Part shown: positions 11,994-15,451 of the stretch, one piece after another
Position numbering within the stretch: position 1 is the stretch's first letter
Layout of the letters: every line of letters begins with the position of its first letter
Virus record (IMG/VR): IMGVR_UViG_3300031669_000225
Coordinates: 1 to 24,632 of that record
Length of the DNA: 24,632 bases
Source: a virus
Direction: 5' to 3' (one strand)
The notes under the pieces: model-generated
What the model was told of the DNA's origin: nothing
Seen by the model: the letters and a program-made list of their open reading frames with translations, nothing else
The model's database searches: none
Translations under genes and position numbers: made by a program

Positions 11994-12680
11994 TTAGGCT
12001 GCGCGGATAGACAAATCGCCGCCCGGTTGACGCCGCATGAAATTGTGAAAATTGCCGCGATACTCTTTGTCTTTGGCGTGATGGTTCAGGCTCAGGTCGG
12101 GCACTATCCATATTTCCTCGCCCATTTCACGCCACCGGCGGCTGAACGAATAATCCTCGCCGTACCAGACGCCTTTGTAGGCGCCGTGATTGAACAGGTC
12201 CACGGAGTACCTGTCCGGGTCTCCGTAAAGCAATTCAGGGTATGCGCGCATGAACTTCTGAATAGCTGCCTTCGTGACCTTCAGGAATCCGGCTGGAACC
12301 TTATCGGCGCGAATCGACCCATCCGACCGGCAAACGGGAATGTTGTTTCCATCGGAAACAATCGTCCCCATGTACTTTTCTTCGTCCGTCTTGAAACGAT
12401 ATATTCCGGCCACTACATCGCCCTCGGTTGAAAGCAGCTTCAGCATGTCCTCCGGGCGCCACGACAAATCGTAGTCAAGATAGACAATGACATCTGCGCC
12501 GGCATCCAAAGCCTTGCGCGTCATAGTCGCCCTTGCGTGCGAAATATACGGGCACCCTATTTCCTGAACATACGCTTCCGTCCAACCCTGCGCCGTAATC
12601 AAGGGGATGGATTTCTCCAAAGCCTCGATATACGGCGCGGTCGGGCCAGCCAGTGAAGGCGTGGCGAAAACTACTTTCAA
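11994..12680 (-). CDS. GT-A-type glycosyltransferase in the virion cluster
   Basis: The 228-residue protein begins MKVVFATPSLAGPT and has a Rossmann-like first half. ALDAGADVIVYLDYDLSW (about 58-73) carries the DxD-type acidic motif expected to hold the metal and sugar nucleotide. A later GEDYSFSRRWREMGEEIWIVP (about 173-193) corresponds to the acceptor-side/catalytic region (ED-F-R), followed by HH. It resembles family-2-type phage glycosyltransferases. The start is TTG at 12680, directly after the stop of the previous gene, with GGAAAGG upstream. It may glycosylate a capsid or tail protein; modification of host surface is the alternative. The donor sugar cannot be told from sequence. Confidence 0.7.
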   Translation of the reverse strand: MKVVFATPSLAGPTAPYIEALEKSIPLITAQGWTEAYVQEIGCPYISHARATMTRKALDAGADVIVYLDYDLSWRPEDMLKLLSTEGDVVAGIYRFKTDEEKYMGTIVSDGNNIPVCRSDGSIRADKVPAGFLKVTKAAIQKFMRAYPELLYGDPDRYSVDLFNHGAYKGVWYGEDYSFSRRWREMGEEIWIVPDLSLNHHAKDKEYRGNFHNFMRRQPGGDLSIRAA

Positions 12681-12971
12681 TTACGCCGAACCTTTCCAGA
12701 GGCCCAGAGCGGTCAGCGTGTTCATCACCTCGATCAACGCGGCTTTCGTTGCCGTGTCGAGCGCGGTAGATGACGCCGTACCGACTAAGGAAGTGGCCTG
12801 CGCAGCAAGCGAACGCTGAGCGATCGGCGTGGCTCCGTAGAACGCATTCAGCGCCGTAGCGGATGCCCCGAATTGGTTCGGCCCACCTTGGTTCAGGTAA
12901 GGGGCCGGAAGCGTAACGGCGTTCGGGCCCGGGTTCGAACCATCGACGTTTGTGGTAGCGGGAAAAGTCAT
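12681..12971 (-). CDS. Small phage protein downstream of coat, function unknown
   Basis: This 96-residue protein has a Pro/Asn/Gly-rich N-terminus (GSNPGPNAVTLPAPYLNQGG), a middle with FYGATPIAQRS and a helical C-terminus ALIEVMNTLTALGLWKGS. The C-terminal pattern of helix then GLW-G is frequent in short virion proteins located after coat genes of this phage type. ATG at 12971 follows the coat stop by 11 bases. It could be a decoration or head-completion protein, but nothing in the sequence decides this. Confidence 0.5.
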   Translation of the reverse strand: MTFPATTNVDGSNPGPNAVTLPAPYLNQGGPNQFGASATALNAFYGATPIAQRSLAAQATSLVGTASSTALDTATKAALIEVMNTLTALGLWKGSA

Positions 12972-12982
12972 GTCATTGCTCC

Positions 12983-14347
12983 TTAGCCCGAAACCCGCAC
13001 GCCGAGCGAGCGATACAGGCTACTAAACCCATACGCCACGTCCATCCGTGTCGGTTCCGCGTCGTTGTTGATGGTGTACTGCGTGGCGACCCGAATCGAA
13101 AGCCCCAAATCTTCGTCGTAAGCCCTGGAGGCTTCGACGGCCGTCCGCGGGAGCGGCAGGTCGACAAAAGCCAGCGCGAAGGCGTCACGATGGAAATACA
13201 GGTTCTCGGTCGAGGACGTTGCCAGAGCAGCGCCGCCGTTCAGCGTGACCGCGGGAGTGCCGGTCCAAGCTGTACCCGTTGCTACGTTCTGGAACTGGCC
13301 GCCAGTGATCGCGCATTCCGCAACTGTCACAGACAGCGTTCCGTCCGATTTGGCGGTGTAAAGCCCGGTCGTGGCGTTGAACGTGCCGTTGGTCGGGGTG
13401 CCAGCCGCAAACGCAGGGCCACCAGGCGCGGCGGCACCGGACATCTGCGAGTAGCCGGCCGGCGGAAGCACCACGAACTGCTTGAGGCTGTTGCCGTAAC
13501 GGCTGCGGTTCTGCGGGTTGACCGGATAGAGGCCGGCAACTTGCATCGTATCGCCAACGTAGCAGGCTGCCGAACTGTTGGTCAGGCCGGACAGCTCGAA
13601 CACGCCGGTCTGCGCCCAGCCAGAGGTCAGGATCGCCGTTCCGCCAGTTCCCGAGGTCAGTCCCACGAGCACCGGGGTTCCCAACAGGGAGCCAGTCGAA
13701 TAGCTGGCGATGTTCGGGTCCTCGAACCAGTCCGCGCCGGCCGTCTTTGCCGCAACCATGCCGGTCTCGTACAGCTTGGAAATGTCGGCCTGGGGATTGA
13801 ACAGACCTTTCAGGCTGTCGGCCATGCTCGAGCTTGCCAGCGGGTGAAGCACCGCCGAGGGCATCGATCCCTTCGGCATGCCCTCAGAGATCAGCAGGGC
13901 GCGTGCATCGCTGAAGTTCTTGTACGACGTCGGAGGCGTGCCGGGCGTCCCGATGCGGTTCGCCGTGTTCTGCATGGCGAAATAAGCTCCGTCCGAGTCG
14001 ATCCGATTCCCCACAGCCATACAAGCCGGCTGAATGAAGCGGGACTCGAATTCGTCGATGTCCAGCAGCATGTTGATCGTGTTGAACTGGATGTCAACGT
14101 GATACTGATACAGGATCGAGACCGGAACGTAGTTCTCCGTGCTCGACTCGACGTTGAGCGCGGGACCAAACGTACCCAGGTAGCGCGGGGGCAGCCTGAC
14201 GTTACAAGTGGCGCCGATTTTGCGGCCTTTCTGGCCGAATTCGCGATCATATTGTCTATTGAACTTGTCGGTAACGACGCATGTGTTCGCCAATACAGGC
14301 AGAGCCCGATTGGTGATCATGCTGATTGTAAGCAGCTGGTTGCTAAT
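12983..14347 (-). CDS. Major capsid (coat) protein, P22-type, with apparent ATT start
   Basis: The 454-residue product is a P22-like coat: N-terminal LLTISMITNRALPVLANT, then KFNRQYDREFGQKGRKIGAT, LPPRYLGTFGPAL and a C-terminal YTINNDAEPTRMDVAYGFSSL. P22 coat is 430 residues. A Gly/Ala-rich insert at about 290-380 is probably a surface domain. The first ATG (14320) would drop nine residues and has no ribosome site. In frame at 14347 is ATT, 5 bases after AAGGAG, with an in-frame TAA at 14359. Starting there gives (M)SNQLLTISMIT, matching the MANxLLTISMIT start I recall for related coats. I therefore call ATT as initiator; a mutated ATG or a base-call error are alternatives. P22-type coat forms the icosahedral shell and needs GroEL/ES to fold. 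Confidence 0.88.
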   Translation of the reverse strand: MSNQLLTISMITNRALPVLANTCVVTDKFNRQYDREFGQKGRKIGATCNVRLPPRYLGTFGPALNVESSTENYVPVSILYQYHVDIQFNTINMLLDIDEFESRFIQPACMAVGNRIDSDGAYFAMQNTANRIGTPGTPPTSYKNFSDARALLISEGMPKGSMPSAVLHPLASSSMADSLKGLFNPQADISKLYETGMVAAKTAGADWFEDPNIASYSTGSLLGTPVLVGLTSGTGGTAILTSGWAQTGVFELSGLTNSSAACYVGDTMQVAGLYPVNPQNRSRYGNSLKQFVVLPPAGYSQMSGAAAPGGPAFAAGTPTNGTFNATTGLYTAKSDGTLSVTVAECAITGGQFQNVATGTAWTGTPAVTLNGGAALATSSTENLYFHRDAFALAFVDLPLPRTAVEASRAYDEDLGLSIRVATQYTINNDAEPTRMDVAYGFSSLYRSLGVRVSG

Positions 14348-14385
14348 GATATCTCCTTAAGGGCTTATCGCCTTCGGCGTGCCTT

Positions 14386-14413: not shown

Positions 14414-14425
14414 GCTCGGAGATAT

Positions 14426-15451
14426 TTAGTGTCGCTTCCTCATCGCGAGGTTCGCATTGTTGCGCTTCTGCCAGTCAGAGATCGTTTCCCGGATATTCAT
14501 GTCGACCGGGTCTTTCTCGACTGTTGCGCCAGTAGTGCTAAGCGGCTGTATCACCGGGGCCGTAGTGCGGGCCTTGCTCGGGGTAATCCCCGTCGTTTCG
14601 CTGGCCTTGCTGGCCTCAGTGACTGCCTGCGGCTTTGCGCCGCCGTTTGATTTCTCTTTCGAGAATGGCTGAAGCGTACTCTCAATTTTCCCGATTTGCA
14701 CTAATTGCAAGGCCGGTTTGAGCTTGGCGAGTGATACCACCAGTTCGGGATGCTTCGCCAGATGGTAGCCCAACTCGGCCAACATTTCCGATTCCTGCAT
14801 GTAACCTGCGACTGCTGGCGGGATCTCCTGATCCGATGCGCTGGTCACATCCACGAAGTCAGGAACGAGCTTGATGGCGTCCGCGATCCGCTGCTTGGCT
14901 GCCGCTTCCATTTCAGCGAAGGCGCGTTCCTGGGCTTGTTTGGCCTGCTCTGCGGCGTGCTTGGCAAGGGCCTGTCCAACCTTCCAGTCGGTCAGGGCTT
15001 CGACGTACTCGGTCTCGGTCCCAAAGTTCTGGCGGTCTGGCTTGGCGGTTTCTTCCGCTTTGGCCTCGACCTGCTTTCCTTTCGCTGCATCCAAAGCCGC
15101 CTGCAGCTGGTCAGCCCGTTGCTCGGCCAGCTTGCGCTCGCTGTACTGCGCCGCGGCGAATTCCTCGGCCTCTTTCATTTCCCGGTGCTTCTTGCCGATG
15201 GCCTTCAGCATCTTGGCCGACAGTTCTTTCTTCTGATTGGCGGTCAGCCCATCCTCGCCCTCTACGTCGTCCGGGTGTTCTTCGGCCTTGTTATCCGGCT
15301 TCGCTTCACCCGGAATAGCGCCATCGCCGCTCGCAGCAGCCGCGCCTTTATCCTCGCCATTGCCTTTTGTTTTCGGCTGCTCAACGGTTTCCCCGCGCGC
15401 GTCGGCCAACACTGCCTCTTTGTCGCTACTGTCCAGCACTACTATTGCCAT
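14426..15451 (-). CDS. Scaffolding protein
   Basis: The 341-residue product is acidic at the start (about 1-85, many Glu/Asp/Lys), then a strongly helical charged region (about 88-170: ELSAKMLKAIGKKHREMKEA ... AQYSERKLAEQRADQLQAAL) and another helix at 170-215. A basic C-terminal tail is present (about 315-341, SDWQKRNNANLAMRKRH). Long helices and a basic C-terminal coat-binding tail are hallmarks of P22 gp8-type scaffolds (303 residues). It sits between portal and coat as in P22 and should direct procapsid assembly and then leave. ATG at 15451 is preceded by GGAGGCAGAGA; a longer reading to 15481 has no such site. It overlaps the portal gene's end by 26 bases. Confidence 0.8.
   Translation of the reverse strand: MAIVVLDSSDKEAVLADARGETVEQPKTKGNGEDKGAAAASGDGAIPGEAKPDNKAEEHPDDVEGEDGLTANQKKELSAKMLKAIGKKHREMKEAEEFAAAQYSERKLAEQRADQLQAALDAAKGKQVEAKAEETAKPDRQNFGTETEYVEALTDWKVGQALAKHAAEQAKQAQERAFAEMEAAAKQRIADAIKLVPDFVDVTSASDQEIPPAVAGYMQESEMLAELGYHLAKHPELVVSLAKLKPALQLVQIGKIESTLQPFSKEKSNGGAKPQAVTEASKASETTGITPSKARTTAPVIQPLSTTGATVEKDPVDMNIRETISDWQKRNNANLAMRKRH

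Follow-up and report, generated by a model that had tools for sequence, protein, structure and literature searches.

The closest described systems in which translation starts at AUU or a similar codon are found among cellular genes. IF3 represses start codons of the infC kind (AUU, AUC and AUA); it rejects AUU and AUC among other codons, and its control has been established for infC and sigR (PMC5472188). Inefficient start codons also limit synthesis, often in company with an extended Shine-Dalgarno sequence (SD), in pcnB of E. coli and cvfC1 of S. aureus (both AUU), ccpN of S. aureus (AUA) and sigR of Streptomyces (GTC) (PMC13009471, PMC5472188). A search of the literature found nothing on phage coat genes started at AUU, or on scaffold-coat coupling with non-AUG starts. 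Two phage systems offer partial parallels. Gene 26 of phage T4 has an internal AUU start. In the RNA phages, stems that occlude the SD of a cistron are opened by an upstream ribosome, which results in translational coupling.

The stretch of DNA analysed here (the window) comprises the 24,632 nucleotides of IMG/VR record IMGVR_UViG_3300031669_000225, a single virus record of a soil phage. The gene for the major coat protein (P22 gp5-type) lies on the minus strand at 12983–14347 and, when read from ATT, has 454 codons plus the stop. The product was identified by its matches to PF11651 (profile search, 1.1e-22, 80.9 bits against a curated cut-off of 24), to the major head protein family phrog_283 (4.7e-54, residues 2–454) and to the gene 5 protein in the PDB (1.3e-6). 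The putative start codon, ATT at 14345–14347 and taken to be read as fMet, was assigned from the homology of its position, an in-frame TAA four codons 5' of it and an SD five bases away. From 14360 the minus strand reads T-TAA-GGA-GAT-ATC-ATT-AGC-AAC-CAG-CTG-CTT-ACA-ATC-AGC-ATG. The TAA at 14359–14357 closes the coat frame upstream of the ATT. The SD AAGGAG (14353–14358, part of TAAGGAG at 14359–14353) was recognized from the sequence and from its opening energy, and the spacer ATATC separates it from the ATT. These bases, as given in a preliminary description of the locus, were confirmed on the minus strand. The first in-frame ATG is at 14320, nine codons past the ATT, and no ATG, GTG or TTG was found in frame between the TAA at 14359 and this position. 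Read from the ATT, the peptide would start SNQLLTISMITNR, with or without Met; read from 14320 it would start MITNR.

Related coat genes were collected by tblastn against IMG/VR and by further scans, which gave 138 distinct coat starts; being gathered by coat similarity, the loci do not sample phages at random. Nearly every tblastn relative had a start codon at the place matching the ATT, and the homologues align residue for residue from that codon, so that the MANxLLTISMIT start given in the preliminary description proved correct. Relatives started with ATG begin exactly at the homologous position (MANQLLTISQIT in L004 and MANQLLTISMIT in L047), from which the coat of the isolated Xanthomonas phage PBR31 is also annotated (MSNNLLTISDIT). 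After a few one-codon insertions and deletions had been shifted, codon 1 of the 138 starts was GTG in 55, TTG in 46, ATG in 18, ATC in 13 and ATT in six, and a larger set, when recounted, showed the same pattern. All 109 representative homologues had one of these five codons at codon 1, as against only 49.7% of the internal leucine, isoleucine, valine and methionine codons of the same genes; CTG, which makes up 15% of the internal codons, and ATA were never seen at codon 1 among the 109. Because this set is restricted to start codons, codon 1 acts as a start, and its reading as an internal hydrophobic residue was rejected. In nearly all of the coats the second residue is a small one (A, S, P, G or T). 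The initiator methionine is normally removed before a small second residue, and that of the coat would thus normally be lost.

The same alignments bear on the ATG at 14320, which would turn the upstream codons into an untranslated leader. As the first in-frame ATG, it is what a gene caller restricted to ATG, GTG and TTG would choose. No SD was found in front of it, as had been claimed earlier, and a start there would remove nine residues (SNQLLTIS and the initiator) that are conserved among coats differing at more than 40% of positions. Many relatives have no methionine at that place (LLTISQIT, LLTMSYIT), and PBR31 and the ATG-started relatives begin at the position homologous to the ATT. The downstream ATG is therefore very improbable as the start and, with no SD and conserved residues to be lost, was rejected. 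Decoding of AUU by a phage initiator or suppressor tRNA was likewise rejected, as the window and 21 long related loci yielded no tRNA genes, and so no phage tRNA able to read AUU. Comparative evidence lends good support to initiation of the coat gene at AUU 14347, and the relatives' starts fall at this position. The call of an AUU start made in the preliminary description thus stands, but not as an isolated curiosity, since non-ATG starts recur across the clade. The locus resembles pcnB, cvfC1, ccpN and sigR in its inefficient start codon; those are single cellular genes, whereas here the trait turns up repeatedly within a clade and concerns the protein that virions contain in the largest amount. 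It shares with T4 gene 26 a phage product started at AUU, but in T4 the start is internal and yields a minor baseplate product.

The ATT is known from one contig, and a sequencing or assembly error hiding a GTG, TTG or ATG start had to be weighed. The nearest relatives of the window coat on the coat tree (L002, L006 and L003) start with TTG, from which one or two wrong bases could yield ATT, and the spacer between SD and start is two bases shorter in the window than in L002 and L006. Against an error stand the ATT and ATC codons in 19 of the 138 distinct starts, which come from many metagenomes and many branches of the tree, and the spacer before most of these starts, which was not seen before other start codons. 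With recurrent ATT/ATC codons and a specific spacer, these starts are not errors as a class, and the window itself could still be one; we consider this unlikely. On a maximum-likelihood tree computed quickly from 109 coats, with codon 1 left out, the four start classes required 47 changes. For the ATC/ATT starts, with 15 tips, the minimum was 14 changes, a number that is approximate because many inner branches are weak; thus, these codons arose, or came in with the leader, repeatedly. Among cultivated phages, those examined for their related coats mostly had ATG and short gaps, which places the non-ATG trait in a clade known largely from metagenomes. In another related locus (L252:1501–3016, MW202674), the annotation splits the P22 coat gene into two parts around a small hypothetical gene, which may reflect an insertion.

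ATG is avoided at the coat gene specifically. Directly upstream of it, in PBR31 as in the window, is the head scaffolding gene (14426–15451, minus strand; phrog_8865, 1.4e-29), which has an ATG start and the SD GGAGG. The gene after the coat (12681–12971, minus strand) has the SD TAAGGAG, and its homologues start with ATG; it served as an ATG control. On the same contigs, every scorable start was ATG among homologues of the scaffold (39 of 39) and of the gene after the coat (38 of 38), as were 31 of 32 starts of gene 9581. Overall, ATG occurred at 16 of 160 scorable coat starts and 118 of 123 control starts (Fisher, 3e-54), any homologue being set aside as misaligned if the codon mapped in it could not serve as a start. 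On contigs with a non-ATG coat, the scaffold had ATG in 37 of 37 cases and the gene after the coat in 35 of 35. These same-contig controls contradict a generally relaxed choice of start codons in these hosts or phages, without selection on the coat gene. Such relaxation would agree with the GTG or TTG starts of several other window genes; set against the control counts, it is hardly credible. That more than a hundred related phages avoid ATG at the coat, and not at its neighbours, suggests that coat synthesis is deliberately throttled. A separate observation concerns the window frame at 11994–12680, which opens only at TTG 12680; few of its homologues have a start codon there.

The coat SD of the window also appears to be held in RNA structure. 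The scaffold gene ends at TAA 14426–14428, and 78 bases separate it from the coat gene. For the leader (14428–14345) a structure of minimum free energy −28.8 kcal/mol was predicted, in which an 8-bp stem, P1, encloses two hairpins, P2 (14386–14413) and P3 (14362–14383), and pairs the coat SD. The 5' strand of P1 is the anti-SD ATATCTCC (14418–14425), immediately 3' of the scaffold stop; the 3' strand, GGAGATAT (14349–14356), contains the SD core and pairs with ATATCTCC at probabilities of 0.85–1.0. An 8-nt complement to any 8-mer holding the SD was present in 0.26% of shuffled leaders. Opening the SD would cost 10.2 kcal/mol, compared with a mean of 2.7 in leaders whose upstream part was shuffled (none of 40 as high, 40 shuffles being used per locus). 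Among 106 coat representatives, the median opening energy was 5.6 against 3.6 in shuffled leaders, and occlusion reached P ≤ 0.05 in 41%, compared with 0% for the scaffold and 3%, 4% and 8% for other control genes on the same contigs.

Relatives display the same architecture in other letters, with stems such as AGCAGTTCGC/GTGAACTGCT (L022) and AGCCGTACAC/GTGTACGGCT (L040), and further SD-pairing stems were AGATGTGACT/GGTTACATCT (L023) and CTCCTAAG/CTTAGGAG (L123). Helices formed by a locus's own leader were stronger than those with 3' parts swapped between loci (z = 8.4), a conservative test, since relatedness among the loci improves the swapped helices. This test was the one applied to the three-way leaders, for which the MAFFT alignment was too poor for pair counts. 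When 30 simple-hairpin leaders were aligned, covariation was 0.206 against 0.131 after shuffling (0 of 500), and both sides of pair 23–45 had changed in 11 sequences. The covariation supports SD-pairing stems across the loci; the stem of the window itself is a fold prediction. A known RNA family was rejected, as no Rfam match was obtained for the window leader (E ≤ 1) or for nine loci. In PBR31, whose coat starts with ATG, a GC-rich hairpin followed by TTTT, like an intrinsic terminator, lies between scaffold and coat (L251, 1426–1500), within an SD-pairing GCTCC/GGAGC stem.

A conserved hairpin or three-way fold that holds the SD and covaries could also be expected of an operator, to which a phage protein, either coat or scaffold, would bind, much as the coat of RNA phages does at the replicase site. 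The leader RNA would then not be a coupling device. Stem sequences and loop sizes differ widely between near relatives, beyond what is expected for a protein-binding site, and Rfam gave no match; an operator is accordingly rather unlikely. Coupling by the scaffold ribosome was preferred. Like the RNA-phage cistrons, the window has its SD in a stem whose opposite strand lies at the stop codon of the upstream gene, and here such coupling would follow by analogy. Of the 41 loci in which SD occlusion was significant, 36 had the centre of the anti-SD between −12 and +20 nt from the scaffold stop. With the anti-SD at or just after that stop, a terminating ribosome would melt the stem and free the coat SD. 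The position fits coupling, yet any hairpin that fills a short gap tends to lie there. Apart from this, two relatives (L133 and L134) have nearly identical coats (end branches 0.008 and 0.021) and unrelated leaders, TTG with a hairpin in one and ATC with a spacer cassette in the other; this contrast suggests that the leader alone may have been exchanged or may have turned over rapidly.

The spacer cassette distinguishes most ATC/ATT starts. YRGCG was found at −8 to −4 in 12 of 15 ATC/ATT representatives and in none of 94 other starts; the ATC/ATT loci that lack it are the window (AGATATC before ATT), L017 and L128. The cassette, TAAGGAGCAGCGAAM-ATY, also stands ahead of a divergent P22-type coat gene, a phage csrA gene and an ejection-protein gene. 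In IMG/VR the pattern AAGGAGYAGCGNNNATHNCNAAY occurred at seven places, five of which start coat genes, and the pattern AAGGAGCAGCGAAMATH at 31. Every TAAGGAG match ending in ATT or ATC opened a frame of at least 61 codons, these being coats, csrA, an ejection protein and small proteins; ATA matches lay within longer open frames or began very short ones only. One of the five coat genes found with the first pattern (L264:2530–3779; PF11651, 6.7e-15) is a very divergent P22-type with the cassette and an ATT start. The csrA gene (L372:1119–1330 of IMGVR_UViG_3300032174_000004; PF02599, 4.4e-23) has an apparent ATT start behind TAAGGAGCAGCGAAA, and the ejection protein (L351:2449–3155; phrog_598) starts behind a TAAGGAG cassette. 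More broadly, (T/G)AAGGAGCAGCGAAM-ATT/ATC precedes genes in L351, L360, L355, L367, L356, L361 and L358, whose non-coat cassette genes encode an ejection protein, a Bbp16-like protein and two small-protein families. The GAAGGAG matches stand at the start of the Bbp16-like gene in L358 and, in L360, of a gene whose protein seems similar to that of L351. The number of cassette matches is near chance for so large a collection, and their coincidence with gene starts is the striking part. The cassette was absent from 399 Pseudomonadota genomes, a result of little weight, as about 0.2 chance matches were expected by our own estimate, and a short-query search of the phage collection returned chance matches only.

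Most infC leaders sampled from Pseudomonadota had a GGAG-type SD followed by ATC, ATT or ATA, in several cases at a spacing of about 8, and the YAGCG spacer was absent from those seen. The coat start resembles infC, the case of IF3 autocontrol, in its strong SD and its AUU or similar codon, and the infC leaders are close to those with the coat cassette in SD, spacing and codon class. It differs in being the start of a phage virion gene, in the SD-pairing leader of the window and in the YAGCG spacer of its relatives, which infC leaders lack; control of the coat by IF3 would be an extension from the cellular cases. It is conceivable, if doubtful, that TAAGGAG-YAGCG-NNN-ATY is a compact and portable AUC/AUU initiation signal used before coat, csrA, ejection and small genes. 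Its spacer would help AUY initiation, late proteins would be gated by the availability of IF3, and the SD-occluding GTG/TTG leaders would be an interchangeable alternative. The YRGCG spacer may aid AUY initiation, or it may instead spread by exchange of leaders.

Judged from sequence comparison, the coat is probably initiated at AUU and throttled by both its start codon and the occlusion of its SD, the latter perhaps relieved by ribosomes ending the scaffold. Ordinary fMet-tRNA would initiate at AUU 14347, guided by the AAGGAG five bases upstream. Two restraints, a non-AUG start and an RNA fold that pairs the SD, would be mixed differently among phages, and both seem to be present in the window. 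A ribosome finishing the scaffold would cover or displace the anti-SD strand and so expose the coat SD, and the weak codon together with IF3 would limit the share of these openings that turn into coat starts. A P22-type coat without scaffold assembles aberrantly, which makes stopping the coat from outrunning the scaffold a plausible purpose; the coat would not be made faster than the scaffold, or without it. Three elements of this account are our inference: the coupling, the control by IF3, and selection for stoichiometry. The tuning of coat against scaffold put forward in the preliminary description fits the data as a proposal, but the start codon would be only part of it, the SD being occluded by the RNA fold as well. 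The SD was significantly occluded in 42 of 91 ATG/GTG/TTG loci and in one of 15 ATC/ATT loci (P = 0.004), and the ATC/ATT loci had slightly longer SDs (P = 0.04). The two brakes thus look partly interchangeable; the sole ATC/ATT locus with a significantly occluded SD is the window, which is atypical of that set. It is odd for coat starts to be infrequent when virions contain more of this protein than of any other, and this counts against throttling.

Gene callers limited to ATG, GTG and TTG would misplace the starts of coat genes that begin with ATC or ATT, and the common spacer ahead of such starts hints at an unrecognized initiation signal. In a tailed phage, a strong start site would usually be predicted for the gene whose product is most abundant; in this group, an entire clade shuns AUG there. 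The clade reaches AUC or AUU many times independently, in combination with an RNA that occludes the SD from a point close to the stop codon of the scaffold gene. Control of the coat-to-scaffold ratio in double-stranded DNA phages thereby becomes testable with simple reporters.
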